Shown here: piece after piece, positions 1,712 to 31,713 of the stretch
Layout of the letters: every line of letters begins with the position of its first letter
Numbering within the stretch: the first letter of the stretch is position 1
DNA from: an uncultured Prevotellaceae bacterium
Lineage (GTDB): Bacteria > Bacteroidota > Bacteroidia > Bacteroidales > Bacteroidaceae
Assembly (NCBI GenBank): GCA_900317305.1
Contig: ONGG01000024.1
Coordinates: 1-46,196, forward strand
Direction: 5' to 3'
Length of the DNA: 46,196 nucleotides
Position numbers and translations under genes: made by a program
The notes under the pieces: generated by a model
Database searches by the model: none
What the model was told of the DNA's origin: nothing
What the model saw: the letters and a program-made list of their open reading frames with translations, nothing else

Positions 1712-3775
1712 ATGATGGACTCTCAAGAAAATGCCCTTAATCAGGGATCGCAAGTAGAAGAGAATAACGTAGTGGAAACTCCCGAAACTAACACCGAAAG
1801 CACAGCACCAGTAGAAGAAACTCCAGCCGTTGAGGAAGCCCCAGCCGCTGAGGAAGCTACTATTGTCGAGGAAGCCCCAGTTGCAGAGGAAACTCCTGCC
1901 GCCGTTGAAGAGACTCCTGCCGCAGAGGAGGCTCCGGCTGCAGAGGAAGCTCCCGCTGTAGAGGAAACCCTCGTTGCCGAGGAAGCCCCCGCTGCCGTTG
2001 AAGAGGCTCCAGCCGCTGAGGAAGCCCCCGCTGCCGAGGAAGCTGCTGCTGAACCCTCCAAGAAGATTTACAAGACCAAGGCGGAGGTGCTCGAGCGTGT
2101 GTACGAGCTGGCTCATGGTGAGGAGACACCGAGCAAGGAGGAGGTAGACCAACTGAAAACCATCTTCTACAAGCTTCACAATGCCGAGCGCGAGGCTGCG
2201 CTGAAAGCCTATAAAGATGCTGGCGGTGATCCCGAGAAATATCAAGTGGCCCCCGACCAGGACGAGGAGAAGTTCAAGGCCGAGATGAGTCTCATCAAGG
2301 AGCGCAGGGCACGCCTGTTCCAGGAGCAGGAGAACGAGAAGGCCGAGAACCTGAAGCGCAAACTCGATATTATCGAGAAGGTGAAGGGGATGGTCACCTC
2401 GCCCGAGAATGCCAATCGCTCATATCAGGAGTTCAAGAAGCTCCAGCAGGAGTGGAGGGAAATCAAGGCCGTTCCGCCAGAGAAGGCCAGTGAACTGTGG
2501 CGCAACTACCAGCTCTATGTGGAGAAGTTCTACGACCTGCTCAAGCTCAACAGCGAGGCCCGCGAGTACGACTTCCGCAAGAACCTGGAGATCAAGACCC
2601 GCCTGTGCGAGGCTGCTGAGAAGCTCGCCGACGAGCCCGACGTGATCAGCGCCTTCCACCAGTTGCAGGAACTCCATCAGCAATACCGCGAGGCCGGGCC
2701 CGTGGCCAAGGACCTGCGCGAGGAAATCTGGGGCCGCTTCAAGGCCGCCTCTACGGTCATCAACAAGCGTCACCAGCAGCACTTCGAGGAACTCCGCTCT
2801 AAGGAAGAGGAGAACCTGGTGCGCAAGACCGCTCTCTGCGAGAAGGTGGAGGCCATCGCCAAGGAGGAGAACAAGGGTGCTGCCGACTGGGAGCGCCATA
2901 CCCGTGAGATTATCGAGGTGCAGGCCGAATGGAAGACCATCGGTTTTGCCCCACAGAAGATGAACGTGAAGATCTTCGAGCGCTTCCGTGCCGCCTGCGA
3001 CGACTTCTTTGGCCGCAAGACTCAGTTCTTCCGCGACCTGAAGAGCCGCTTCGCCGAGAATGCCGAGAAGAAACGCGCGCTCGTAGAGCAGGCCAAGGCC
3101 CTGCAAGACAGCACCGACTGGAAGGCTACCGCCGCCAAACTCACCGAGTTGCAGAAGGAGTGGAAGACCATCGGCATGGTGCCCAAGAAACTGGGCGACC
3201 AACTCTGGGCCGACTTCCTCGGTGCCTGCAACAAGTTCTTCGAGGCACGCAATGCCGCCAATGCCGGCACCCGCAACGAGGAGCGCGACAACCTGGCCAA
3301 GAAGCGTGACGTCATCGCACGCCTGAAAGCCATCTCTGAGGACGATGAGGACCTGCAGGAGAAGGTGCAGCAACTCTGCGACGAGTACAACAGCATAGGC
3401 CATGTGCCTTATCGTGAGAAAGACCGCCTCTACAAGGAGTATCACGAAGTGCTCGACAAACTGCGCGACGAGTTGAACATCTCGGTGCAGCGCCGCCGTC
3501 TCGACAATTTCAAGAGCAACCTCAAGAATGTGGCCGAGAAGGGTGTCGGAGCACTCGACAACGAGCGTGGTCGTCTGATGAAGCGCTACGATGCGCTGCG
3601 TCAGGAAATCCAGACCTACGAGAACAACATCGGATTCCTCAGCGTATCGAGCAAGAAGGGCAGCAGCCTCATCGATGAGATGAACCGCAAGGTGCAGAAA
3701 CTCAAGGACGACCTGGCCCTCGTTCGCGACAAGATCAAGGCCATCGACGCCGAGAACGCTGCTTCCGAAGAGTAA
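1712..3775 (+). CDS. DUF349 repeat protein with acidic Glu/Ala/Pro N-terminus
   Basis: A 687-residue soluble protein. Residues about 20-115 are low-complexity repeats of Glu, Ala, Pro and Val (units such as EEAPAAEEAPAV). From about 130 to 640 the protein is a series of roughly 75-residue helical repeats with the DUF349 hallmark (LxxLQxEWKxIGxVPxxxxxxLWxxFxxAxxxFFxxR). LQKEWKTIGMVPKKLGDQLW is a clear copy and AEWKTIGFAPQKMNVKIFER another. There is no signal peptide or membrane segment. DUF349 proteins are widespread in Bacteroidetes with no firmly known role. Two ATG codons (1712 and 1715) overlap as starts. A strong terminator follows at 3807-3835. Confidence 0.85.
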   Translation: MMDSQENALNQGSQVEENNVVETPETNTESTAPVEETPAVEEAPAAEEATIVEEAPVAEETPAAVEETPAAEEAPAAEEAPAVEETLVAEEAPAAVEEAPAAEEAPAAEEAAAEPSKKIYKTKAEVLERVYELAHGEETPSKEEVDQLKTIFYKLHNAEREAALKAYKDAGGDPEKYQVAPDQDEEKFKAEMSLIKERRARLFQEQENEKAENLKRKLDIIEKVKGMVTSPENANRSYQEFKKLQQEWREIKAVPPEKASELWRNYQLYVEKFYDLLKLNSEAREYDFRKNLEIKTRLCEAAEKLADEPDVISAFHQLQELHQQYREAGPVAKDLREEIWGRFKAASTVINKRHQQHFEELRSKEEENLVRKTALCEKVEAIAKEENKGAADWERHTREIIEVQAEWKTIGFAPQKMNVKIFERFRAACDDFFGRKTQFFRDLKSRFAENAEKKRALVEQAKALQDSTDWKATAAKLTELQKEWKTIGMVPKKLGDQLWADFLGACNKFFEARNAANAGTRNEERDNLAKKRDVIARLKAISEDDEDLQEKVQQLCDEYNSIGHVPYREKDRLYKEYHEVLDKLRDELNISVQRRRLDNFKSNLKNVAEKGVGALDNERGRLMKRYDALRQEIQTYENNIGFLSVSSKKGSSLIDEMNRKVQKLKDDLALVRDKIKAIDAENAASEE

Positions 3776-20043: not shown

Positions 20044-21234
20044 ATGGACGTGGAAGAAATAAAAGAGGCAGAAGTAAATATGGAAATGGAAGCGACAAAT
20101 AGCAGAAATATCTCAGGATTTGCCCTATACCGGCTGCCCTACGCGCAGGAATGCTGTATCGTGGCACAGACAAAAGGAAAGCCCGAGCGGCTCTTCTCAA
20201 CGAGTGCCCTCGGGGGCAGGAGCGGTTTTGTGGTGGCGCCATTCAAGCCCGACATGCGGCATCCCGTGATCTTGCTTCAGCCTGATGTCACCATGACGGC
20301 TTCGCCCGACGACCTGCTTGTGAACGACAGTAGCCCGCTGGCCGGGCTGCTGGAGAGGCTGGCGGAGAACACCTTCGACCGGCCGTCGGACGAACCGGTG
20401 AGAGATAACGACAAACGCCACTATGACATCGACTTCGCCAATTTCCACTCGCATATCCTCGAGGGCGAATTCACGAAGATCGTACTTGCCAGGTGCTCGC
20501 GTGAGGAGCGTCCCGATGCCATCACCCCCATCCAACTTTTCGTGAAGGCCTGCGAGCTGTATCCCAGGATGTTCGTGGCGCTGGTCTCCACCAAGGTGAG
20601 CGGCACATGGCTCATGGCCACTCCCGAGGTGCTGCTCCAAGGCGACGGCAAGCGATGGATGACCATGTCGCTGGCAGGAACGATGAACCTCACGGGCAAA
20701 CTGCTCGATTTCGACAACCCTCCCTCGCCCGGCAAGCCTGTCGACGACAGCGAGATAGGATGGAGCATAAAGAACATCCAGGAGCAGCGGTTTGTCTCTA
20801 CCTATATCACCGAGTGCCTGGAACAGTATGCCTCCGACATTGTGGAGAAAGGTCCATTTACGATGAGGGCCGGCGACCTGGTGCACTTGAGAAGTGATTT
20901 CGAGTTCAGCCTGCCCGACGACAACTGCATCGGCGACCTGATCAACACGCTCTATCCCACACCCGCCGTCTGCGGACTGCCCAAGGAGTCGTCGCTCGAC
21001 TTCATCGTGGCGAACGAATTTGCGCCGAGACTCTACTACAGTGGCTTCGTGGGACCCTTGGGCATGGATGGCCACACGCATCTCTATGTGTCGCTCAGAT
21101 GCATGCGCGTGGACAGCGATGGATGCTCGCTCTATGCCGGAGGCGGACTGCTGGCCGACAGCAATATGGACGCCGAGTGGATGGAGACGGAATTCAAGAT
21201 GGACACCATGCGCAAGCTCCTGAAAACCCAATAG
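20044..21234 (+). CDS. menF: Isochorismate synthase
   Basis: A 396-residue chorismate-utilising enzyme that isomerises chorismate to isochorismate, the first committed step of menaquinone synthesis. The C-terminal two-thirds is the chorismate-binding domain, with ILEGEFTKIVLARCSREERP, a FVALVSTKVSGTWLMATPE block, SLAGTMNLTG, GWSIKNIQEQRFVSTYI, TPAVCGLPKE, YYSGFVGPLG and the final LYAGGGLLADSNMDAEWMET. The N-terminal 130 residues are the divergent part. It begins 12 nt after the thioesterase and ends 3 nt before menD. Confidence 0.93.
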   Translation: MDVEEIKEAEVNMEMEATNSRNISGFALYRLPYAQECCIVAQTKGKPERLFSTSALGGRSGFVVAPFKPDMRHPVILLQPDVTMTASPDDLLVNDSSPLAGLLERLAENTFDRPSDEPVRDNDKRHYDIDFANFHSHILEGEFTKIVLARCSREERPDAITPIQLFVKACELYPRMFVALVSTKVSGTWLMATPEVLLQGDGKRWMTMSLAGTMNLTGKLLDFDNPPSPGKPVDDSEIGWSIKNIQEQRFVSTYITECLEQYASDIVEKGPFTMRAGDLVHLRSDFEFSLPDDNCIGDLINTLYPTPAVCGLPKESSLDFIVANEFAPRLYYSGFVGPLGMDGHTHLYVSLRCMRVDSDGCSLYAGGGLLADSNMDAEWMETEFKMDTMRKLLKTQ

Positions 21235-21237
21235 AAC

Positions 21238-22944
21238 ATGTTTGTAAACAGCGAAAACGTGAATATCCTCACCTCACTGCTCCTGCAGCATGGGGTAAGG
21301 GAGGCCGTGGTGTGCCCCGGCAGCAGGAACGCACCCATCGTGCACAACCTGAACGCATGTGGTGAGATAAGGTGCTGGCCGGTGACCGATGAGCGCAGCG
21401 CGGGATTCTTCGCGCTGGGGATGGCGCAGGCCGCACGGCAACCCGTGGTGGTGTGCGTCACCTCGGGAACGGCCGTGCTCAACCTGGCACCAGCCGTGGC
21501 GGAGGCGTTCTACCAGCATGTGCCGCTCGTGGTGGTCTCGGCCGACAGGCCGGAGCCTTGGATCGGTCAGCTCGACGGACAGACCCTGCCTCAGCAGCAT
21601 GTCTTCGGACAGTTGGTGAGAAAAGCCGTGGCCCTGCCGGTGGCGGTGGACAACGACACCGACAGGTGGCATTGCAACCGGCTCGTCAACGAGGCGATGC
21701 TGGCCACCTCATTTCCCGTCGCCGGACCGGTGCACATCAACGTGCCCATCGCCGAACCGCTCTTCCGGTTCGATGTAGACCGGTTGCCCGACGAACGGGT
21801 CATCAGACGCGTGGCTTCAGGAGCATTGGAGACAGGCCGAATGGTGGTGAGGCGGATCATGGAGGCCGAAAGACCGATGGTGGTGGTAGGCCAACACTAC
21901 TGCGACTACAGCCGCATCGACAAAGCCGCCTGCCTGAAGGGCGTGACCTTCCTACGGCAACAGGGGGTGTGGCTGAGTGAACGGCTCACCGACCTGAGCG
22001 ACCATTCCTGGCATGTGGACGAGGCGATGGCCGTAGTAGGCGAGGATGCTTCGTTCTTGCCCGACCTCGTCGTTTATATGGGCGAGACGGTGGTGAGCAA
22101 ACGGCTGAGACAATTCCTGCGAAGGGCAGAGCATGCCGAGGTAATGATGGTGACGGCCGATGGCGAGGTGAGTGATGTGACCATGCACGCCACACAAGTG
22201 GTAGTGGCTTCGCCAGAGGATGTGTTGCTGGCAGCCGCCGAGGCCAGCGATAGCCTGGTATCATCCCCTACAGGAAATGGCATGGCCTATCGTGAGCAAT
22301 GGGACAGCGTGTTGCGCAATGTGGCACAGCATGCCGACGACTATATGCCTCCCTTCTCGCAGATGGCCGCCGTGCGCTATCTGGAGGAGCAACTCGAGGA
22401 TTTGGAACTGGACTATGACGTGCATTACGCCAACAGCATGGCCGTGAGATTGGCCAATATCTATGCCGGTCATCCCGTTTGGTGCAACCGTGGGGTGAAT
22501 GGCATCGACGGGTCGGTGTCCACCGCCGTGGGCTTCGCCGCCGCAAAAGGCGACGACCATATGGTGGTGTGCGTGACGGGCGACCTCAGTTTCTTCTACG
22601 ACCAGAACGCGTTGTGGAACCAGAACCTGAAGGGCAACCTGCGCGTGGTGCTGCTCAATAACGGCAGGGGCGGCATCTTCGGCAGTCTGCCTGGACTGCG
22701 TGACAGCGATGCCCTGCACCGCTTCGTGGGGGGCGACCATGCCACGCACGCAGAAGGCATCTGCATGCAGAACGATATCGGGTATATCCGCGCCACCGAC
22801 ACCGATGCGATGAAGGTGGGAATAGTGAGGCTGCTCACCGAGCGTACCCGCCGCCCTATGGTCCTCGAGGTGGTGACCGACGCCGATACCGACAATGCCG
22901 TTGTCGGGGCATACTACAAGATGCTCACCGCCCCAACCCGATAA
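21238..22944 (+). CDS. menD: 2-succinyl-5-enolpyruvyl-6-hydroxy-3-cyclohexene-1-carboxylate synthase
   Basis: A 568-residue thiamine diphosphate enzyme that joins 2-oxoglutarate and isochorismate (SEPHCHC synthase). The N-terminal Pyr domain begins with [20 protein letters not shown] and CPGSRNAP and contains [16 protein letters not shown]. The ThDP/Mg-binding motif in the C-terminal PP domain is [18 protein letters not shown], followed by [11 protein letters not shown]. The length is normal. The start lies 3 nt after menF; menB begins 31 nt after its stop. Confidence 0.96.
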
Positions 22945-22975
22945 ACCAGCGAAACATCATCAACATCATTTCAAT

Positions 22976-23797
22976 ATGGCACAAAGAGAATGGAAGAAAA
23001 TCAGGGATTTCGATGAAATCCTCTTCGAAGAATACAATGGGATTGCCAAAATCACCATCAACCGCCCGAGATACCGCAACGCCTTCACCCCGAAGACCAC
23101 GCTCGAACTCTCTCAGGCCTTCAACTACTGCCGCGAGGCGCAGGATATCAGTGTGGTGCTGCTTACCGGAGCCGGCGACAAGGCCTTCTGCTCGGGTGGC
23201 GACATGCATGTGAAGGGCCGTGGGGGATATGTGGACGACGAGGGCGTGCCCCGGCTGAGTGTGCTCGATGTGCAGATGCAGATCAGGCGGTTGCCCAAAC
23301 CGGTGATTGCCATGGTGAACGGATTTGCCATCGGTGGCGGACATGTGCTGCACTTGGTGTGCGACCTCACCATCGCCAGCGAAAATGCCATCTTCGGACA
23401 GACCGGACCGAAGGTGGGGTCGTTCGACGCCGGATTCGGTTCCTCCTACCTGGCACGCATCGTGGGACAGAAGAAGGCCCGCGAGATATGGTTCCTGTGC
23501 CGGCAGTATACCGCTCAGGAGGCAGAGCGCATGGGAATGGTGAACAAGGTGGTGCCGCTCGAGCGACTGGAGGACGAGTGCGTGGAATGGGCCGAGACCA
23601 TGATGGAGCGCAGTCCGATGGCGCTCAGGATGATCAAGGCCGGACTGAATGCCGAACTCGACGGTCAGGCTGGCATCCAGCAACTGGCTGGCGACTGCAC
23701 CATGCTCTACTATTTCCTCGACGAGGCCCAGGAGGGCGGAAAGGCATTCCTTGAGAAACGGAAACCCGATTTCAAGAAATATCCCAAGATGCCGTGA
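22976..23797 (+). CDS. menB: 1,4-dihydroxy-2-naphthoyl-CoA synthase
   Basis: A 273-residue crotonase-fold enzyme that closes the ring of o-succinylbenzoyl-CoA. Conserved blocks are [28 protein letters not shown] (the flexible oxyanion region), [20 protein letters not shown] and [20 protein letters not shown], with the Asp and Ser/Tyr residues used by MenB. The open frame begins at 22895 inside menD, but the ATG at 22976 gives the standard start [19 protein letters not shown] 9-bp repeat tract separates it from menC. Confidence 0.96.
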
Positions 23798-23812
23798 TAC
23801 AGGCCACTTGGT

Positions 23813-23866
23813 GGACTCTAAGGACTCTAAGGACTCTAAGGACTCTAAGGTCCTTAAGGTCCTTTC
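23813..23866. repeat. 9-bp tandem repeat tract (GGACTCTAA type) between menB and menC
   Basis: Four perfect GGACTCTAA units (23813-23848) are followed by GGTCCTTAA and GGTCCTTTC. The tract lies 15 nt after the menB stop, inside the men operon. The GGTCCTTAA unit is shared with the tract at 41851-41931. Confidence 0.9.
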
Positions 23867-23885
23867 AGGGCTAATAACTACAACG

Positions 23886-24914
23886 ATGCGAATACAGATA
23901 GAGAAGCGGTTGTTTCATTTCCGGCAACCGGCAGGCACTTCGCGTGGGACATACACCACACGCACCTCGTGGATGCTCCATGCTACCGACGAGAGCAAGC
24001 CCGAATGCGTGGGGGTGGGGGAGTGCGCTCCCTTGCCCAAACTCAGTTGCGACGACATTCCCGACTATGAGCGTGTGCTCCGCGAGATGTGTGATGTGGT
24101 GGAGCGCACGGGAGAGATACCCTATGCGCTGCTGCGTCCATACCCGTCGATGCTTTTTGGACTGGAGACGGCACTCCTCAGTCTGAGAAATGGCGACGTG
24201 CTTTTCGATACGCCCTTCACACGGGGCGAGGAGGGCATCACCATCAACGGACTGGTATGGATGGGGTCGTTCGAGGAGATGCGGCGGCGTATGGAGGAGA
24301 AAATCGACCAAGGATTCGGTTGTGTGAAACTGAAAATCGGTGCCATCGATTTCGACAGCGAACTCGCCCTCGTCAAGAGTCTGCGGCAGCGCTTCTCGTC
24401 GCAGGTGATGACACTGAGGGTGGATGCCAATGGCGCCTTCTCGCCCCTGGATGCCATGGACAAACTGCGCCAGTTGGCCCCCTACGACATCCATTCCATC
24501 GAGCAGCCCATCCGTCAGCGCCAGTGGCATGAGATGGCACGCCTGTGCAAGACCACGCCGATACCGATAGCCCTCGACGAGGAACTGATCGGGGTGAACA
24601 GTCCTGAAATGAAAACTGACTTGCTCGACACCATCCGTCCACAGTACATCATCCTCAAGCCCTCGCTCCATGGAGGCATGAGGGGAAGTGAGGAGTGGAT
24701 AGCGCTGGCCCGGCAGAAAGGTATAGGAAGTTGGATAACCAGTGCGCTTGAGAGCAATGTCGGGCTGAACGCCATCGCCCAGTTTACCGCAAAGATCTAC
24801 CCCGACGGGCTCCATGCCCCACAAGGGTTGGGCACCGGACAACTCTTCACCGACAATATCGAGTCTCCCCTTCACATCGAGGGAGAAAAACTGTGGTATA
24901 ATCCTGATTTTTAG
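23886..24914 (+). CDS. menC: o-Succinylbenzoate synthase
   Basis: A 342-residue enolase-superfamily enzyme that dehydrates SHCHC to o-succinylbenzoate. Catalytic features in order are the KxK motif in CVKLKIG, the metal ligand Asp in LRVDANGAF, Glu in SIEQPI, Asp-Glu in ALDEELIG and the second catalytic Lys in YIILKPSLHGG. The N-terminal cap has ECAPLPKLS. The open frame extends upstream through the 9-bp repeat into menB, but the ATG at 23886 gives a normal MenC N-terminus (MRIQIEKRLFHFRQPAGTSR). Confidence 0.94.
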   Translation: MRIQIEKRLFHFRQPAGTSRGTYTTRTSWMLHATDESKPECVGVGECAPLPKLSCDDIPDYERVLREMCDVVERTGEIPYALLRPYPSMLFGLETALLSLRNGDVLFDTPFTRGEEGITINGLVWMGSFEEMRRRMEEKIDQGFGCVKLKIGAIDFDSELALVKSLRQRFSSQVMTLRVDANGAFSPLDAMDKLRQLAPYDIHSIEQPIRQRQWHEMARLCKTTPIPIALDEELIGVNSPEMKTDLLDTIRPQYIILKPSLHGGMRGSEEWIALARQKGIGSWITSALESNVGLNAIAQFTAKIYPDGLHAPQGLGTGQLFTDNIESPLHIEGEKLWYNPDF

Positions 24915-24927
24915 CAGAAACACATAG

Positions 24928-25896
24928 ATGACACTCGAGGAATTCCTTGACGAATGGCATAACGATGATGACAGCATCGTTGTGAAAACCAGTGGGTCGA
25001 CGGGCGCGCCGAAACTGCTGCGTGTGGAGAAATGCAGAATGGAGGCCAGTGCGAGGATGACCCTGCGGTTCCTTGGTCTGCACCCTGGACAGACGGCACT
25101 CCTCTGCATGCCGCTCGATTATATCGCTGCCAAAATGATGGTGGTGAGGGCTTTGGTGGGCAACCTGAGGCTGGTGTCGGTGGAACCATCCGGCCATCCG
25201 CTTGCCGACGCAGGGGTGGGGGATACACCCATCGATTTCGCCGCCATGGTGCCATTGCAAGTCTACGACACACTCTTGGTGCCAGAGGAGAAGGAACGGC
25301 TCAGGAAGGTGGGGCAACTGATTATCGGAGGCGGGGCGGTGAGCCATTCGCTGGCCCGTGAGCTGGCCTGCTTGCCCAATCCCATTTGGAGCACCTATGG
25401 CATGACCGAGACGCTCTCGCACGTGGCCATGCGTCGCCTGAACGGCCCTCAGTCGGATTCTTGGTATACACCGCTTGAGGGAGTGAACATCGGTCAAGAC
25501 AACGACGGATGCCTAACGATCGACGCCCCCTCGATTTGTCCGCACCCCTTGCATACCAATGATGTGGTGCGCCTGCACGATGATGGCAAGCGCTTCATGG
25601 TGCTTGGCCGGAAAGACAATGTGGTGTGTTGTGGTGGCGTGAAGATACAGGCCGAGGAGGTGGAAGAAAGACTGCAGCCCTATATCGACGCACCCTTTTT
25701 TGTGGGCAAGGAGAAGGACGATAAGTTCGGTGAAATCCTTGTCCTTGTGGTTGAGAAGAGGGATAAAAAATTATTGGAAGACATTATTGGCAATGTCCTC
25801 CCTAAATATTGGCGACCTCGAAAAATCTATTCTGTAGAGAAGCTGCCTCTTACGGAGACAGGTAAGCCAAAACGTTTTGTAAATGATTTTGGATGA
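24928..25896 (+). CDS. menE: o-Succinylbenzoate-CoA ligase, compact form
   Basis: A 322-residue adenylate-forming enzyme that activates o-succinylbenzoate to its CoA ester. The phosphate loop TSGSTGAPK is at residues 22-30, unusually near the start. STYGMTETLSHVA, DVVRLHDDGKRF, the hinge LGRKDNVVCCGGVKIQAEEV and the catalytic C-terminal Lys in LTETGKPKRF follow. Typical MenE is 450-500 residues, so the N-terminal subdomain is largely missing; compact MenE is usual in Bacteroidetes and the gene looks intact. It is the last gene of the men operon, and a hairpin overlaps its stop codon. Confidence 0.92.
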   Translation: MTLEEFLDEWHNDDDSIVVKTSGSTGAPKLLRVEKCRMEASARMTLRFLGLHPGQTALLCMPLDYIAAKMMVVRALVGNLRLVSVEPSGHPLADAGVGDTPIDFAAMVPLQVYDTLLVPEEKERLRKVGQLIIGGGAVSHSLARELACLPNPIWSTYGMTETLSHVAMRRLNGPQSDSWYTPLEGVNIGQDNDGCLTIDAPSICPHPLHTNDVVRLHDDGKRFMVLGRKDNVVCCGGVKIQAEEVEERLQPYIDAPFFVGKEKDDKFGEILVLVVEKRDKKLLEDIIGNVLPKYWRPRKIYSVEKLPLTETGKPKRFVNDFG

Positions 25897-25933: not shown

Positions 25934-26140
25934 TTAGAATTTCTCGTCAGCCTCGGCCTTGTTAGCTTCCTCGTCCCAAACACTCTTGCTGGTGGGAAGT
26001 CTATCGTATGCGTCATCCCATACACCAGTGTTGCCTTCTACAGGCTCGGAGGTGGGAGTTCCCATAGGATTCTCAAGTACAGAATTGTAGAGTTCAATGT
26101 CTACGTAAATTGCCTCTGGCTTCAAATACTCTTTTTTCAT
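25934..26140 (-). CDS. Small MKKxYxxP-family protein A (68 residues), function unknown
   Basis: A 68-residue acidic protein. It starts MKKEYLKPEAIYVDIELYN, continues through VLENPMGTPTSEPVEGNTG and WDDAYDRLPTSKSVWDEE, and ends EADEKF. The 59-residue protein at 29814-29993 matches it in the MKKxYxxP start, a central G-x-(T)S..PV.G..G and a C-terminal SKS(N)VWD. Neither has a signal peptide, membrane helix or cysteine cluster. Similar short proteins occur near secreted proteins in Prevotella and Bacteroides as I recall, without known function. The in-frame GTG at 26254 would add a basic 38-residue leader but lies past the predicted transcription start region; the ATG at 26140 is preferred. It follows the dockerin-protein gene and has its own promoter. 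Confidence 0.7.
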   Translation of the reverse strand: MKKEYLKPEAIYVDIELYNSVLENPMGTPTSEPVEGNTGVWDDAYDRLPTSKSVWDEEANKAEADEKF

Positions 26141-26281
26141 GATGGTAAATATTTTAATAATTATTTTTATTCTTTTCTTCTGTCTATCCGTCTTTTTCTC
26201 GTGCCTTTTGTTTGAATGGACCCTCGTATTGTTTTTCAGCCGAGAGTATTTCACAATTCAATCAATCCTCACTTTTCGATG

Positions 26282-26312
26282 CAAATTTATAAAAAAAATC
26301 AGTCGTGGCAAA
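26282..26312 (-). promoter_or_regulatory. Promoter of small protein A
   Basis: On the minus strand TTTG (26309-26312), a 19-nt spacer and TAAATTTG (26282-26289) match the consensus exactly. The predicted leader is about 135 nt. The same TATAAATTTGCA core and spacing are used upstream of the T9SS-type gene at 31882-31912. Confidence 0.6.
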
Positions 26313-26357
26313 AAAATTGACCTTTATTTTACGACAAAGTTGTTTTTTCTATGATTT

Positions 26358-28190
26358 TTACTTTCTGCCAAGGATGATATTGATGATTCCCGTGACATCG
26401 TTCATGTTGATTAATTTGTCGTCATTCACGTCGGCATTGTTGAATACAAACTTGGTAACGGGCTTGCTCAGGATGTAGTTGATCACGGTGGTCACATCCA
26501 TCATGTTGACCAGGCCATTGCCATCGGCATCGCCTTTCAGCACGCCCTCCTGGGTGGTGAACTCAAGCACTTCGGCTGGATCCTCCTCACCGCTCAGGTC
26601 CAGATAACAGGTGTTGTTGGCGATATAGGTGAGCACCTTGCCGCTGATGGGGTCGGTCACGTTCTTGTTATAGAATCTGCCATAGTCGCCCAGAATACGC
26701 ATGTAGGAGGGGTCGAAGAGGGTGCGGTAGTTGGCCTCGTCGCCGCTCTCGTCATCAAGCCAGATCTCGCCTTTCAGCAGGTTGGGAGTGGTGATGGGGT
26801 CGATGTCCTCTGAAAGGGGCATCAGTCGGTTGTCGATGGGCTGTGTGCCTGTGCACTCAAGTATAACGGCTGTTTTAGCCGGCACCTTACCGCTCTTGAT
26901 CTCAGCCAAATGTGGCTGTCCGTTCCCATCCAGTTTGTCGATGGTATAGGCTTTCACACCGTCAAGACACTGGTAGGGGAAGGCGGTATAGAGTGTGGTG
27001 TAGTATTTGGCACCTTTCTTGCAATTCGGGTCGGGCATCGCTCCGAAGTAGTTGTCGGGATTCTCCTCGTCGATGATGTCGAGATACCACTGTGCAACGG
27101 TCTCTTCTTCATACCTGTTCCAAAGCGACGGCGTACGAACATTGCCAATGAATTCGTAGGTTCGAGTAGTATTACCTCTGTCATTGATATAGCCAGTGAA
27201 TCCATCGTAACTACCAAAGATATAGTAGCTGCCATCGTATTTTTTCTCGACCCTGAATGTCATGTGTCCGATTTCTCTTGTCGAGATTCCTTGCGAGAAC
27301 ATCTCCACGCCTTCAAGGGCACCTGTCTGTGTGGATTTTCCAACTGCTTTAATTACCAAGGCGGGTAGACAATGGGCACGTGCATTGTCGCGGTCGACCA
27401 TCATCAGCGAATTCTTGAACTGTCTTTGGCTTGCAGCAAGTGTGCTTTCTGAAGTGCCACTTACTCCAAGCAGGCGTTTGCTGCTTTTGTTGCGCACATA
27501 GCAGTAGATGCCTTTCGTTTCTGTCTCTTTCGATTCGTAGACGGCCGTATAGGTGCCGGCTGTGCTGTTTGTTACCTTGAACGTGTAAGGATTCTCCTTG
27601 GTTAGTGTGGAAGAATCACCGAAACGCCAACCTAAGAACCTTCCTATCAATTTGTCGGGAAGAGCTGTCAATGTCACTTCATCACCCAATTTGTTATCAG
27701 GTATGTCAATGCTTACCGCACCCAAACCCTCATCGGAAGATACTGGAAATACTAGGCCTTTCTTGGCAAAATATGCATTGAATTTTACTTTTTCCGCTTC
27801 TTCTTCTACGGTGGAGGCCGTGGTCACGATGTCGGAAGCAAATCTCGAATAGCTGATTGTGGTCTCAGATCCATTGCTAGGATTTACTTTTGTCCAATGG
27901 GTGAACATGTAACCTTCTTCGGGCTTGGCAAAGAGGTATGCGGTAAGTGTTGTTGCTTGTACAGTGGCTCCTACTGTAATTTTTTGGGTACCAGTACCTT
28001 TGTAGTTCCTGTATTGGTCATCGGTAGGAGTCATTTCGGTGGTCGACACATATACCTTTCCATATCCTGTGGGTTTTGCCTCAGTATTGATGCTATAATA
28101 GAATGTGGTGCCAGCAGCAAAAGCCTGGTAGCTGTAAATACAGACCAGAGCTAACAATGTCAAAAGACGTTTTGTCAGGGATGATTTCAT
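26358..28190 (-). CDS. Secreted repeat protein with C-terminal dockerin-type calcium-binding pair
   Basis: A 610-residue protein, signal peptide first (MKSSLTKRLLTLLALVCIYS, cleavage after AFA). Residues about 30-200 contain two or three beta-rich repeats of InlB/SHIRT-like character (PEEGYMFTHWTKV, LIGRFLGWRFGDSSTLTKEN with AVYE). The middle is unrecognised but shares a region with the T9SS-type protein at 30013-31713: YTTLYTAFP, VPAKTAVILEC, NRLMPLSED. The last 60 residues form a dockerin type I pair, loops DADGNGLVNMMD and DVNDDKLINMND. In other bacteria dockerins bind cohesins; in Bacteroidetes they often appear as C-terminal tails of exported proteins. The frame is open from 28325, but the ATG at 28190 begins the signal peptide. 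Confidence 0.82.
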   Translation of the reverse strand: MKSSLTKRLLTLLALVCIYSYQAFAAGTTFYYSINTEAKPTGYGKVYVSTTEMTPTDDQYRNYKGTGTQKITVGATVQATTLTAYLFAKPEEGYMFTHWTKVNPSNGSETTISYSRFASDIVTTASTVEEEAEKVKFNAYFAKKGLVFPVSSDEGLGAVSIDIPDNKLGDEVTLTALPDKLIGRFLGWRFGDSSTLTKENPYTFKVTNSTAGTYTAVYESKETETKGIYCYVRNKSSKRLLGVSGTSESTLAASQRQFKNSLMMVDRDNARAHCLPALVIKAVGKSTQTGALEGVEMFSQGISTREIGHMTFRVEKKYDGSYYIFGSYDGFTGYINDRGNTTRTYEFIGNVRTPSLWNRYEEETVAQWYLDIIDEENPDNYFGAMPDPNCKKGAKYYTTLYTAFPYQCLDGVKAYTIDKLDGNGQPHLAEIKSGKVPAKTAVILECTGTQPIDNRLMPLSEDIDPITTPNLLKGEIWLDDESGDEANYRTLFDPSYMRILGDYGRFYNKNVTDPISGKVLTYIANNTCYLDLSGEEDPAEVLEFTTQEGVLKGDADGNGLVNMMDVTTVINYILSKPVTKFVFNNADVNDDKLINMNDVTGIINIILGRK

Positions 28191-28251
28191 TCTTATTTGT
28201 TGAATTATGGTGGACGTAAAACGAGTTATGTTCTCAATTTCCAATTTGGTG

Positions 28252-28259
28252 CAAAGGTA
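28252..28259 (-). promoter_or_regulatory. -7 element of the dockerin-protein gene
   Basis: TACCTTTG on the minus strand, followed by CA, lies about 60 nt before the start codon. No -33 TTTG is visible. The rest of the 310-nt gap 28191-28500 is the repeat element at 28338-28497. Confidence 0.45.
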
Positions 28260-28337
28260 ATAAAAAATACTGAGACAGCACGTTTTGAATGAATAATTTT
28301 GCTTTCGTGCACTATTTGATTGCATTTTTACTCCACT

Positions 28338-28497
28338 TTAGTTGATAGGAGTTCGGAAGTGACAGAAGTTCAGGAGTTCAGACATTACCACAATCTAACA
28401 GCCATTGAACCCGTCGAGGTGAATTCGGGCTATTGTCTGAACTCCTGCAACTCCTGAACTCCTGAACTCCTAAAGTTGAGCGAATGCGAAACTTCAA
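28338..28497. repeat. Palindromic GGAGTTCA element, intact copy
   Basis: The element has 8-mer runs at both ends (GGAGTTC type at left, TGAACTCC type at right). A perfect 12-bp inverted repeat sits inside: GGAGTTCAGACA (28373-28384) and TGTCTGAACTCC (28434-28445), flanking a 49-nt core with TCGAGGTGAATTC. It ends in AGTTGAGCGAATGCGAAACT (28474-28493), which touches the DUF4105 stop codon. The same tail is found at 41168-41187. Confidence 0.85.
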
Positions 28498-28500
28498 ATT

Positions 28501-29715
28501 TTATTTCTTTTCCACAGATTTCCTATATTGCAGATATTTGCTGCACGTGCGCACGGCAAACATGGCCACAACGAGCTGGTGGTCGATGTCGAGTTGCGAT
28601 GAGAGGGGAGTGGCAAGAATGAAGAGCACGAGGATGATGGTGTAGAAAAGGTAGATTTTCCCGAAGTCTCTCTTCCTGCCCAGACAAAGGAGGAGAACCA
28701 GGGGTAGGGGATTGCAGGGAATAAGGTACCAGTTCCATCGGGTGACAAATAGATGGGATACTGTCGAGGTGTAGGTGAGCGCCAGACCAACGAGAAACTG
28801 GATGGTGAGGAGTAGGGCATCGAGCACCTTGGCGGCTTTCTTCCAACCCCAGCACCATTCGCCGATGGTGATGAGAACAACAATGACTAGAAGTACAGAG
28901 AACAGGATGCGTGGAGTGACGGGACTGGCTTTCACGAAATGGGTCTGATGAGCTAGTTCGATGGGTGCGGACTTGAACAGCGGTCGCCGTGCGCCACTGT
29001 CGTCCACGATTTGAGCATTGCTGAACACCTCGACGAGTGATAAGGGGCTCATGCGGTATTCCAGGGCGAAATAGTCGTCGCAGTTGCTGCCAAATAGGGT
29101 GATATATAGAAACTCGTACCATGGTGTGCTGCCGGTGAGATGACGAACACAGTCGCCATTGTTGGTGGTGGCATACCAGGGGAGTTTGCCATAGTCAATG
29201 TGCTCGCTGATGAGTGCGTTCTGCACCATGATGATGACCATCATCACGCAGTTGGTGTTCAGGTAGTTGAACTTCAGATGAGGTGGCTTCATCATCTCCT
29301 CGTCGAGATTCTTCCAAAGCAGTTGCTTCTCGTGATGGGTGAGGCTGAGCTCGTACTGCTTGATGCCACGACCATCTTTTTGGTATTCGGAGATATAGTC
29401 GGATGTTGGGATGGCTCGAACGGACGCGTCAGCATCGCCATTGAAAAACTTCAAATAGTCGCCGGGTTGGGCATTCATCTCCAGCGAGAAGCAGTAGTCG
29501 AGGTCTTCTGACGGACATTCCATGCGTAGGGCGCAGTGCCCCATACTCGAATAGATGATGTCGGTGGGTGTGCTGACAATCACACTGGCCTTCACGAAAT
29601 CGCTGCTGTCGGTGAGCTCCTTTTTATCTTCAGCGCTATATGAGGGTATACCCGTAAGAAACAATGCGATGGAAATGAACAGACGTGTTGTAACGTAGAT
29701 GGAATGTTGCGTCAT
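28501..29715 (-). CDS. DUF4105 / Lnb N-terminal domain membrane protein
   Basis: A 404-residue protein with an N-terminal signal or anchor (RLFISIALFLTGIPSYS). The exported domain resembles DUF4105 (Lnb_N, PF13387): an early SSMGHCALRMECP with the conserved His and Cys, YELSLTHHEKQLLWKNLDEE, and NYLNTNCVMMVI at the place of the usual D-N-C-T-T. After about residue 270 there are five membrane helices, as in Lnb-type proteins. The family has a predicted papain/NlpC-like fold with no proven role that I know. The frame is open from 29823, but the ATG at 29715 begins the signal. It is flanked by a terminator upstream and a repeat element at its stop. Confidence 0.8.
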   Translation of the reverse strand: MTQHSIYVTTRLFISIALFLTGIPSYSAEDKKELTDSSDFVKASVIVSTPTDIIYSSMGHCALRMECPSEDLDYCFSLEMNAQPGDYLKFFNGDADASVRAIPTSDYISEYQKDGRGIKQYELSLTHHEKQLLWKNLDEEMMKPPHLKFNYLNTNCVMMVIIMVQNALISEHIDYGKLPWYATTNNGDCVRHLTGSTPWYEFLYITLFGSNCDDYFALEYRMSPLSLVEVFSNAQIVDDSGARRPLFKSAPIELAHQTHFVKASPVTPRILFSVLLVIVVLITIGEWCWGWKKAAKVLDALLLTIQFLVGLALTYTSTVSHLFVTRWNWYLIPCNPLPLVLLLCLGRKRDFGKIYLFYTIILVLFILATPLSSQLDIDHQLVVAMFAVRTCSKYLQYRKSVEKK

Positions 29716-29764
29716 GTTGCGATGATATGGTAAGAAATTGATGGTCGAAATTTGTATAAAAAAA

Positions 29765-29783
29765 GGTGGCAAGAAATGCCACC
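29765..29783. terminator. Bidirectional terminator after small protein B
   Basis: GGTGGCA (29765-29771) pairs with TGCCACC (29777-29783) around AGAAA, with seven A before and five T after on the plus strand. In the minus direction it also has a T run, so it can end the T9SS-protein/small-protein-B transcript before the DUF4105 gene. Confidence 0.8.
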
Positions 29784-29813
29784 TTTTTATTATGTAGGAT
29801 AATCTTTTGATTA

Positions 29814-29993
29814 TTAGTCCCAAACGTTACTCTTTGATGCCCACATGTCGTCGACACCTCCATCCTGCTCGCCATCACCTTGCACTCCGCCAACGGGAAT
29901 GATTGAGGTGTTGCCCAGCAATTCGTCCATAACGTTTCTCTTCAAAGACAAGGTCATCACCTTGCAAACCGGGTTGATATATTGTTTCTTCAT
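29814..29993 (-). CDS. Small MKKxYxxP-family protein B (59 residues), function unknown
   Basis: A 59-residue protein beginning MKKQYINPVCKVMTLSLKRN, continuing VMDELLGNTSIIPVGGVQGD, GEQDGGVDDMWASKSNVWD and then a TAA at 29814-29816. It matches small protein A (25934-26140) in start, centre and end. Its ATG is 19 nt downstream of the stop of the large T9SS-type protein, and a strong terminator follows 30 nt after its own stop, so the two genes form a transcript of their own. Standard ORF length cut-offs would miss it. There is no signal peptide or recognisable domain. A role as partner, inhibitor or modified peptide of the exported protein is speculation. Confidence 0.7.
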   Translation of the reverse strand: MKKQYINPVCKVMTLSLKRNVMDELLGNTSIIPVGGVQGDGEQDGGVDDMWASKSNVWD

Positions 29994-30012
29994 AATTCAA
30001 ATTGGGCTTTAA

Positions 30013-31713
30013 TTATTTAATAACCATTTTTTTGCCGTTCACGATATACAGACCCTTTGTAGGATTGGTGACAACGCGACCCTGAATGTCGTAGATGGTG
30101 TTGTTCTCTTTAGATGTAGTAGCAACCTCTTCGATGCCAAGGGCGTTGAAGGTCTCGCTGTCAACAATGAAGATGTTGGCGTTGGCCATGCTGCTGTCGA
30201 GAATCATGAATGCCTTGTTAGGAGCAATGAACTTGCCATTGTACTTGTAGAAGCCGATGGGGTTGGGATCGTAAGCGGAAACTTTGTTGAACACGCGCAC
30301 GAGCTTTCTTGCTACGACAGTGGCTTGAGGATCGAGAGGCATGTTGTAGTAGTTGAACACGTCCTCGTCGGTTGGCTCCTCACCATTCACATCAAAGAAC
30401 TCTTTGAAGAAGATACCACTCAGGAACGATTTGCCAAGAGGAGCCTCTGGGTCATCCTCCAGCGGAGTCAGAGTGGGCTGAAGCAGGTTGGTCTCGCGAG
30501 CAGTAGTAGCGCACTCTACAACCACCGGTGTGCGTGCAGGAACGATATCCTTAATCTCAACAGCCTCGAGATAACCAGCTACTGGCCCGTCTTGAACAGT
30601 GATGCCATCAAGAATAGCAGGAGCGTTGGGGAAGCCCCATACACGAACAGTATTGTCACCATTGTCCACAATCTTCATTGGGAAGTCGGTGTAGATAGTG
30701 GTGTAGATCTTCTTGTCGTTGAAACCTTCCACACCATTCTTCACTGCGAAGTAGTCGTGGCGACCCTTCACGTCGGTACCCTCAACGATTTCCTCGAGGA
30801 TCCATTTTGCATAGTTACCAGCTTCGTTGGCTACTTCAATCTCAGGCATGAAACCGTCAATCTTGTAGTACTTGTTGTTGTTGGCAAACCAGATGCTTGG
30901 ACCACCCTGGTCGTTGAATCTCTGATAGGTCTTAAGGTCGGTGTCAACTTTACCACCAATCAGGTAATAGGTATGACCCATATGGATACGGTCCTCGAAA
31001 GCAACATAGTTCCACCAAGTGTCATAGAGCTGGGTGGCACCAATGCTCTCATAGTAAGCGAGTGCGGAGAACACCAGTTTGTTCCATGCCCATTCTGCAG
31101 GAGTGTTACCATCTACTTGAATCTCGATACCTTTCTCTGTAAGGGCGTCAACCAATGGCTGAGTGCTTGGAGTAGTACTCTTCAGATACCATGCTTCCTT
31201 GCCATCAATATCGGTAGGCTCCATGTACATCTTCATCAGTGAGAACATTTTCTCAATGATTTCATTCAGTTCAGCCTCCTTGAACTTCCAATTGTCCTTT
31301 GTGTTGGCATACTTCAATCCGTCGGTGAATCCACCTTTAAGCAGGTCTACTAATGGGCTGTAAACAGCAGCAGAAGCGTCTACACCTTGAGAACGGAGGT
31401 TGAGCACCTCGAGGTCTTTCTCGGGATAAACATCCTCATACTTGCCAGTGGTCTCAGGAGCCTCCTCCATTGGGATGGCATTGAGGAACATCACTGTTCC
31501 AGGCTCGGTGATGGCGTCATCGGAGCTCAATTCAGGCTTAGCTGTCGTCTTCTGAGAGATGTACATTACACCTTTATTCCATTTCTGGCCCTGATAGCCG
31601 GCATTGATAATACGGTAGTAGCCCTTAATTCCACCACCGTCTTGGGCATAAGCGCCAAGGCTCATCGCCGAAGCGATAAACGTCAATAATAAACCTTTTG
31701 TAAATTTTCTCAT
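30013..31713 (-). CDS. Large secreted protein with T9SS type A-like C-terminus
   Basis: A 566-residue protein with a signal peptide (MRKFTKGLLLTFIASAMSLG, cleavage after AYA). The first half is largely helical and unrecognised (a GYYRIINAGYQGQKWNKGVM start, which hints at a ricin-like or 'YYRI' surface domain). The second half shares motifs with the dockerin protein at 26358-28190: YTTIYTDFP, DIVPARTPVVVEC and NLLQPTLTPLEDD. The end, IYDIQGRVVTNPTKGLYIVN then GKKMVIK, is the classic type A sorting signal of the type IX secretion system. It is therefore probably carried across the outer membrane and attached or released. Substrate or ligand is unknown. It is transcribed with small protein B. 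Confidence 0.82.
   Translation of the reverse strand: MRKFTKGLLLTFIASAMSLGAYAQDGGGIKGYYRIINAGYQGQKWNKGVMYISQKTTAKPELSSDDAITEPGTVMFLNAIPMEEAPETTGKYEDVYPEKDLEVLNLRSQGVDASAAVYSPLVDLLKGGFTDGLKYANTKDNWKFKEAELNEIIEKMFSLMKMYMEPTDIDGKEAWYLKSTTPSTQPLVDALTEKGIEIQVDGNTPAEWAWNKLVFSALAYYESIGATQLYDTWWNYVAFEDRIHMGHTYYLIGGKVDTDLKTYQRFNDQGGPSIWFANNNKYYKIDGFMPEIEVANEAGNYAKWILEEIVEGTDVKGRHDYFAVKNGVEGFNDKKIYTTIYTDFPMKIVDNGDNTVRVWGFPNAPAILDGITVQDGPVAGYLEAVEIKDIVPARTPVVVECATTARETNLLQPTLTPLEDDPEAPLGKSFLSGIFFKEFFDVNGEEPTDEDVFNYYNMPLDPQATVVARKLVRVFNKVSAYDPNPIGFYKYNGKFIAPNKAFMILDSSMANANIFIVDSETFNALGIEEVATTSKENNTIYDIQGRVVTNPTKGLYIVNGKKMVIK

Follow-up and report, generated by a model that had tools for sequence, protein, structure and literature searches.

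Introduction

Among the described systems closest to the one treated here are the linear polyphosphorylated peptides (LPPs) of Bacillota, which involve, in the excerpts of the paper that describes them (PMC13381572, Nat Commun 2026), a RiPP recognition element (RRE; RiPP, ribosomally synthesized and post-translationally modified peptide), a SipW-like peptidase, an HprK-like kinase, an NTP transferase and an exporter. According to the same excerpts, RREs bind leaders with the motif [Y/W]xxPx[L/V/I/A/F/Y], LPP precursors carry YxxPxVLxHQxIxFETxxS with a Tyr–Ser distance of 18, and in the LPP assay leader cleavage by the peptidase required the RRE and left a core that starts with AQS and bears several phosphates on its Ser. 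No role of LPPs is known according to the authors of that paper, who call them restricted to Bacillota. The radical-SAM RiPPs of Bacteroidales have, in the excerpts of PMC10352776, GG-motif leaders and C39 transporters. Here we analyse two small proteins, A and B, of an uncultured Prevotellaceae bacterium, encoded on a stretch of 46,196 nucleotides (positions 1 to 46,196 of contig ONGG01000024.1, assembly GCA_900317305.1; the window), together with the family to which they belong.

This family, whose members start with MKKxYxxP, is paired with exported surface proteins, is under purifying selection, is co-inherited with its partners and has a leader in common with precursors from PqqD-containing enzyme cassettes, and the genome of the window holds an intact trio of kinase, peptidase and PqqD genes. 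A RiPP-like system in which A and B serve as RRE-dependent precursor peptides is, in our view, rather likely; the particular modification that they would receive is much less certain. In open-access texts, no description of the small-protein family or of its pairing with surface proteins was found.

Results

Two small proteins and their secreted partners

A and B are encoded on the minus strand of the window (coordinates include the stop codon), each behind a gene for a large secreted-type protein:

25934..26140, minus strand: small protein A, 68 residues, proposed precursor peptide of the MKKxYxxP family, with a variable acidic tail that contains SKSVWD
26069..26140, minus strand: proposed leader of A, residues 1–24, MKKEYLKPEAIYVDIELYNSVLEN, with a YxxPxA motif; the leader end is a guess
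26358..28190, minus strand: large-A, the secreted-type partner of A, 610 residues, ATG at 28190, with an InlB-like repeat and a C-terminal dockerin
29814..29993, minus strand: small protein B, 59 residues, proposed precursor peptide, tail ending in SKSNVWD
29922..29993, minus strand: proposed leader of B, residues 1–24, MKKQYINPVCKVMTLSLKRNVMDE; its end is likewise a guess
30013..31713, minus strand: large-B, the secreted-type partner of B, 566 residues, with a C-terminus of the type IX secretion system (T9SS) type ending in NPTKGLYIVNGKKMVIK
30016..30165, minus strand: T9SS-type C-terminal region of large-B, the first row of our profile A1

A preliminary description of this DNA had placed both open reading frames (ORFs) here and noted their shared MKKxYxxP start and SKS(N)VWD end, which is borne out, while the shared ‘PV.G..G centre’ turned out to be a loose match that is not conserved in the orthologues of A. 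It had also put each small gene behind its large one, which is accurate for B (start 19 nt 3' of large-B), whereas ‘just downstream’ was generous for A (217 nt 3' of large-A). That both belong to one family agrees with a genome-wide search with A, which finds B as the sole second match (E value 0.039, 34% identity). Within the window MKKxYxxP occurs at two places only, even when one mismatch is allowed, compared to 0.14 expected; one of 100 shuffles reached two.

The description would have been refuted by small frames that are not under protein selection. Over eight orthologous loci, B has a pN/pS ratio of 0.33 and A one of 0.40, and among the three closest loci (L112–L114) the ratios fall to 0.08–0.13 and 0.15–0.28, respectively. 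All seven syntenic loci in other genomes (L112–L118) have a B-like ORF behind large-B and an A-like ORF behind large-A. This conservation, taken with the pN/pS ratios, indicates that the frames are protein-coding and that the pairing is old. The proposed leader is better conserved among orthologues than the rest of the protein (mean identity 78% compared to 58% for B, and 61% compared to 45% for A), and B is identical in 58 of its 59 residues in Prevotellaceae bacterium RUG003 (L362). Similarity among partners goes with similarity among their small proteins (Mantel r 0.70 over 89 pairs, with none of 2,000 permutations as high), and the small-protein core is partner-specific; the large-B clade, for instance, has FGNxSxxPV. 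Some large-B homologues are followed by two or three consecutive small ORFs (L112 and L114, with up to three in the latter), and at L118:7326-11168 the whole unit of large-B homologue and small gene is duplicated in tandem, with identical small proteins.

A family paired with exported surface proteins

Across 60 genomes of the genus, the strict MKKxYxxP pattern has 348 matches and its reverse 29; the 348 include an antisense artefact, MKKRYLxPS..., which lies within a gene reading MDKLSYALGLGIG... and recurs, with one or two matches per genome, in many of the listed genomes. We collected 119 distinct strict ORFs of 30–110 residues, A and B not among them, from 30 pattern loci, 76 further regions in list order, matches in the genome of the window and 20 regions with homologues of large-A or large-B; the last contributed 17 of the 119, and antisense-type matches and one with a stop were skipped. 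Nine were dropped later (seven antisense or non-family, two of another small family), which left 110.

A gene with a T9SS-type C-terminal domain (CTD) lies upstream of 78 of the 119, with a gap of at most 50 nt in 65 of these 78, and by our reading 22 of the remaining 41 also adjoin a surface gene. The suggestion that an exported protein and a short peptide form a unit is thus strongly supported, and the homologues are not scattered without exported partners, as most adjoin surface genes. The 110 divide into 78 behind a CTD recognized by pattern, nine behind a CTD variant or further off, three behind a dockerin partner, three behind fimbrillin-like proteins or a homologue (L132, L147 and, by likeness, L033), four before a CTD or secreted gene (before a CTD protein in L142, L146 and, in the genome of the window, L001), three before predicted lipoproteins without a Pfam match (L133, L139 and L145), three in a fusion cassette described below and seven unplaced.

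The pairing also appears in a sample of 80 loci of named genomes that were chosen by similarity to large-B, irrespective of any small ORF. There, a YxxP small ORF lies within 260 nt of 54 of 100 CTD-ended genes compared to 12 of 258 other genes, and one of the strict form within the same distance of 32 of 100 compared to five of 258. Among the best 30 CTD loci of three genomes, six of whose CTDs had been in the CTD profile, 17 were flagged and 15 have a member by our reading, the other two being taken as chance. Seen from the CTD side, the association is weaker: profile A1 finds 77 CTD matches in the genome of the window at E values up to 10; of the 50 of these 77 that were listed and inspected, seven have a family member by our reading, and the loose-pattern flags L311, L325, L326, L344 and L351 beside CTDs of this genome were taken as chance.

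The partners are diverse: among 47, 13 have BspA-type leucine-rich repeats, two are C10 peptidases and two are fimbrillin-like, and Pfam Por_Secre_tail is not among the 25 listed of the 26 families that they match. Large-B ends in NGKKMVIK, a KxxxK-like T9SS tail, and its genome encodes SprA (SprA_N, E value 6.6e-235; the sole T9SS component tested). A lectin-like beta-trefoil domain, the only domain suggested for large-B, would span residues 28–309, and profile matches of large-B to gingipain structures are weak (E values 0.29–0.85). As SprA is present in 59 of the 60 genomes, they offer no contrast for testing the T9SS link. A link to T9SS alone does not stand as a rule: G207, the genome scored as lacking SprA, keeps three strict-pattern ORFs (L022, L132 and L133), two of which adjoin lipoprotein-like genes. 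Of the proposed association with dockerin and T9SS proteins, the part on T9SS-type tails stands, but T9SS is not required, and the dockerin partner is a single orthologous group among the loci examined.

The 78 members behind a CTD have a median length of 62 residues and a pI of 4.5, and no signal peptide is apparent by eye. Their sequence logo reads M-K-K-x-Y-x-x-P followed by alternating hydrophobic residues to residue 15; Y and P were fixed in these sets by the search pattern, such that their constancy is no test. A junction of the form hydrophobic-hydrophobic-x-small-S follows near residues 20–25 in 40 of the 78 (1.8 expected after shuffling). In the form hydrophobic-x-x-Ser it is found in 41, with Ala two residues before the Ser in 12 and Cys in 11 of these, and this Ser follows the Tyr by 19–20 residues in 34 of the 41. 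The tail is rich in D, E, G and N, with a Trp within the last 15 residues in 58 of the 78. Among 86 members none matches NCBIfam or PHROGs at an E value of 0.01, and the lone Pfam match, to an NTPase model at 0.008, was taken as chance.

Other genera of the same taxonomic family hold members (g22, g10 and g30). In 147 other genomes of the wider order the pattern has 177 matches compared to 83 for its reverse, a twofold excess compared to twelvefold in the genus, and the five strict small ORFs found there in 29 loci, a minority of the listed places, include no member by eye. The ORF MKKLYTQP... of L246 was discarded as a non-member, as it lies in the frame of a secreted protein beside rpoD.

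The leader is shared with precursors in PqqD cassettes

As the anatomy of the family resembles a leader followed by a core, we searched for PqqD, the classical leader-binding protein. One of the matches in the genome of the window, the second, on contig C52, is a fusion of a signal peptidase with PqqD, preceded by three tandem family members (MKKTYFEP..., MKFYSEP... and MKAIYSEP...), and two other genomes have the same fusion with two copies:

L211:7084-7875 (contig C52 of the genome of the window), L201:2256-3026 and L049:211-1137: signal-peptidase-like + PqqD fusion, predicted lipoprotein, preceded by two to three tandem precursor genes

The N-terminus of the fusion suggests a place outside the cytoplasm, which is odd for a leader-binding protein. 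Cassettes of a second kind combine radical SAM, PqqD, peptidase and kinase genes with one small ORF each (L251, L257, L450, L454, L455 and L457; in L455 only the end of the radical-SAM gene is present). These ORFs have 41–48 residues and a [YF]xxP leader that runs to IAAS in four and to MVCGTS or MVSACS in two.

To relate the leaders, we built a profile from 67 surface-linked members, with A, B, the members of the large-B clade and L043 excluded from training, and searched it against 5,457 small ORFs, of which 5,455 are ATG-started ORFs from PqqD loci and the other two are A and B. A ranks third (E value 5e-4) and B fourth (E value 8e-4). Ranks 1–10 are, in order, L252 (identical to L043), L257, A, B, L457, L450, L211, L201, L454 and L049; an inner start of L257 follows at rank 11, ranks 12–13 fall to L251, and the first unrelated ORF stands at rank 14 with an E value of 1.9. 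The Tyr-to-Ser distance in the cassettes is 19, 19, 20 and 20 in four precursors and 18 in the fusion cassette. The precursor lies inside an enzyme cluster in L211, L201, L049, L251, L257, L450, L454, L455 and L457; A and B are not encoded inside any. Export of the double-glycine/C39 kind was set aside because the leaders, judged by eye, have a different pattern, no search aimed at C39 having been made.

A kinase–peptidase–PqqD trio

HPr-kinase-like, signal-peptidase-like and PqqD genes form a trio in 31 of 43 loci scanned, with at least one trio in each of the 26 genomes with PqqD loci examined, and 17 trio loci (17 genomes) adjoin an rpoD-family gene. In the genome of the window the trio lies on contig C35, positions 1787-3518, next to rpoD. 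Its discrete PqqD matches PF05402 with an E value of 2.8e-11, and the PqqD profile matches TfuB1 (6jx3), which we take to be a lasso-peptide RRE, with an E value of 1.5e-4. The peptidase residues S40, H78 and D93 are invariant in 19 of 19 aligned sequences (the copy of this genome matches TIGR02227 weakly, at 0.0086), and all 37 kinase-like ORFs carry a Walker A motif. NTP_transf_5 or an ABC exporter is present in some Prevotella cassettes, and both are present in L452.

A simple PqqD-neighbourhood idea failed, as no precursor was recognized next to the rpoD-linked PqqD; the link came from the other cassettes. Beside the trio in 20 of the 43 loci stands a gene for a secreted-type protein of roughly 130–200 residues (L243:1196-1759 and homologues), two copies of which were tested and have no Pfam or NCBIfam match.

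Genomes without PqqD

PqqD is present in 53 of the 60 genomes of the genus. The seven others together have 10 pattern matches, of which seven are antisense artefacts, two are non-members and one is a member. Pattern-match counts differ between PqqD-less and PqqD-bearing genomes with p 1.3e-4 (Fisher, cut at 2) and 4.3e-4 (rank test), both uncorrected for kinship, and genomes counted by hand as having or lacking members differ by PqqD status with p 9.6e-4. The PqqD-less genomes occupy three places of a 15-genome tree, which was built from one short protein and is weak in its deeper branches.

Neighbouring genes and other small proteins

The remaining features of this part of the window are:

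26370..26537, minus strand: dockerin type I domain of large-A (Pfam match and homologue comparison)
28501..29715, minus strand: Lnb-like membrane protein, 404 residues, between both units; Pfam Lnb_N 5.4e-12 and 5TMH_Lnb 3.6e-12
29760..29788, minus strand: terminator-like hairpin 3' of B, stem GGTGGCA/TGCCACC and then a T run, −14.4 kcal/mol

With the first Met left out of the query, large-A matches Dockerin_1 (9.4e-08) and PF18998 (1.4e-05), and its homologues (L128, L129, L130 and L131) end in either a dockerin or a T9SS-type tail, as if the two were interchangeable. The Lnb-like protein matches NCBIfam NF051878 with an E value of 1.8e-36, yet under the cut-off of the model. A gene that resembles it in size and end occupies the same place in four of the seven syntenic loci (L115–L118), and one of similar size and end likewise adjoins, by eye, the related units of L128, L129 and L131. 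The hairpin came from folding and was not listed by a simple hairpin scan. On the plus strand, genes in menaquinone order (20044-25896) converge on A; the last two, MenC-like and MenE-like, were tested, and the others are presumably isochorismate synthase-like, MenD-like and MenB-like.

A separate small-protein family with the start MKKxYxDPslgi or similar (L023:1501, L182, L267:1374-1523 and L290:1374-1523), which also occurs outside the genus, continues with gdFekP and then CdkyD in three of four cases. The small proteins of L160, L188 and L204 have a well-conserved common core, SGYAIDN or KGYAIDN and then NxxNII or NxxNVI, and are encoded behind homologous partners of 812–864 residues, of which that of L188 has no Pfam match.

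Discussion

A working model and the points against it

If A and B are precursor peptides, roughly their first 24 residues would be the leader, whose YxxP segment would be bound by a PqqD-type RRE and passed to the signal-peptidase-like Ser/His/Asp protease, which would cut near the junction with the tail. The HPr-kinase-like protein would modify the acidic peptide, probably at the junction Ser in those members that have one. The enzymes would act in trans from the trio beside rpoD rather than from genes beside A and B, and each precursor would be paired with one exported surface protein, be it a T9SS cargo, a dockerin protein or a lipoprotein. With one precursor per exported surface protein, the mature product would probably either act for that protein or be presented together with it. 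Tentatively, the whole genus may employ such leader-directed modification in constructing its cell surface, with dispersed precursors, each tied to a single surface protein, that one conserved trio cuts and modifies in trans, and with the peptide as a dedicated companion (an assembly factor, a displayed ligand or a tag); we hold this to be possible, but doubtful.

The precursor model draws on the like precursors inside PqqD cassettes, the leader-profile ranks, the Tyr–Ser spacing, the apparently intact trio, the scarcity of members in PqqD-less genomes, the tandem small ORFs behind large-B and the parallel with the LPP system. Several observations weigh against it. The leader profile failed to find several tandem copies and the cassette precursor of L455. 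The hydrophobic-x-x-Ser junction at residues 20–25 is missing from A and B, as it is from 37 of the 78 other members, and the residue two after the Pro is one that the RRE motif allows (L, V, I, A, F or Y) in only 26 of the 78; the Ala of A fits, the Cys of B does not. The kinase-like proteins match HPr-kinase models weakly (the copy in this genome TIGR04352 at 0.0056 and ScmC at 0.001), and neither an NTP transferase nor an MsbA-like ABC exporter was found at the trio of this genome (L243). A member (L042) persists in G218, which lacks PqqD, and of the genomes with PqqD at least four (G209, G224, G233 and G244) have no strict-pattern member by hand count. Moreover, losses of PqqD cluster on the tree (as low a value in 16 of 500 shuffles), and kinship may thus account for part of the co-loss. 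Finally, no precursor was recognized beside the rpoD-linked trio at its 17 loci; its substrates would thus be elsewhere, with the surface-linked family as the obvious candidate, and it is from this that we infer action in trans.

Alternative readings

The small protein could instead be a cytoplasmic partner, an export chaperone or folding inhibitor that binds the large protein before Sec export and is never processed. The tight pairing and the co-inheritance described above would fit this reading, as would the partner-specific core and the absence, by eye, of a signal peptide. However, the best-conserved part is the YxxP start, which cassette precursors without an adjoining exported partner have as well, whereas the tail that should touch such diverse partners is acidic and fast-changing. 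Most inspected CTD proteins in the genome of the window do without a small gene, and the seven PqqD-less genomes hold a single strict member. We therefore regard a cytoplasmic partner as unlikely. Of the three roles that the preliminary description had proposed, precursor peptide gains from the leader match to PqqD cassettes, while for chaperone and inhibitor the pairing itself is all that we found.

Alternatively, the leader may be a targeting tag only, with PqqD and the peptidase delivering and cutting the peptide but no chemical modification, such that the mature acidic peptide would serve the surface protein as a subunit with a structural or regulatory part. The fusion, which reads as a lipoprotein by eye and has no kinase-like gene in the flanking stretches examined, points this way, as does the lack of a Ser at the usual place in A and B, but a kinase-like gene accompanies peptidase and PqqD in most of the loci scanned, and we consider delivery without modification improbable.

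Much less credible is a regulatory ORF whose translation tunes the surface operon and whose peptide has no further function: a terminator-like hairpin does follow 26 of 39 small genes compared to one of 39 control stretches inside the partner, consistent with a position at the operon end, but the pN/pS ratios, the residues conserved at both ends, the relatives outside surface operons and the members that stand before rather than behind the surface gene all argue otherwise. The missing junction Ser and the lack of any enzyme beside A or B would also suit former precursors that keep the YxxP likeness by common descent and now do something unrelated, but the hydrophobic spacing that follows YxxP is sufficiently preserved for the profile to find cassette precursors, and members are nearly absent from PqqD-less genomes, which makes this very unlikely.

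Implications

RiPP precursors are usually sought beside their modifying enzymes, whereas here the trio stands alone by rpoD, and the genes of the likely precursors, dispersed among surface-protein loci, would escape cluster-based mining. The main text of two RRE-mining papers contains no word beginning with Prevotella or Bacteroid. If the precursor model is true, it would provide a function for a PqqD–peptidase–kinase trio found in all 26 Prevotella genomes with PqqD loci examined, and T9SS cargo and surface lipoproteins would gain a peptide partner. As each precursor points to its surface partner, the role of LPP-like peptides would then become testable.

Comparison with known systems

With T9SS cargo the locus shares the C-terminal signal of large-B, the SprA of its genome and the 77 tails found by profile A1; the T9SS literature, in excerpts that include PMC9477747, makes no mention of a dedicated small peptide gene. 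Like the radical-SAM RiPPs of Bacteroidales, in as much as excerpts describe them, Prevotella cassettes hold radical SAM and PqqD genes with small precursors, whereas the leaders of the family are of the YxxP type and no radical-SAM gene lies beside A or B.

Lasso peptides with a discrete B1, including paeninodin, resemble the system, in the excerpts describing them, in their YxxP leader, PqqD-like B1 (compare the TfuB1 match) and HPrK-like kinase, for which the trio has a candidate. They differ in that a signal-peptidase-like protease takes the place of B2 here and in that the family tails are acidic and roughly 35–50 residues long; neither a macrolactam cyclase nor B2 was seen among the cluster genes scanned, no search aimed at either having been made.

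The closest comparison, in so far as the excerpts of the LPP paper allow it, is with LPPs, from which A and B differ in lying outside any cluster, one per surface-protein gene, in a host that belongs to Bacteroidota and not Bacillota, in lacking a Ser at the corresponding place, and in having an rpoD-linked trio without a recognized precursor, NTP transferase or exporter. As they are outside a cluster, lack the Ser and have a trio without two of the parts, we do not count A and B among the LPPs. On the other hand, the Prevotella trio has a discrete RRE, an archaeal/SipW-type signal peptidase with Ser-His-Asp and a candidate HprK-like kinase, and some cassettes add NTP_transf_5 or an ABC exporter. 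The family likewise combines a conserved YxxP leader with a variable C-terminus, and half of it has a Ser at a similar distance, in a junction that resembles the AQS start. This piece-by-piece match suggests a system that would work like that of LPPs, and, by this analogy, we propose that A and B may be processed in trans by the trio, much as the LPP precursors of Bacillota are by their own enzymes.

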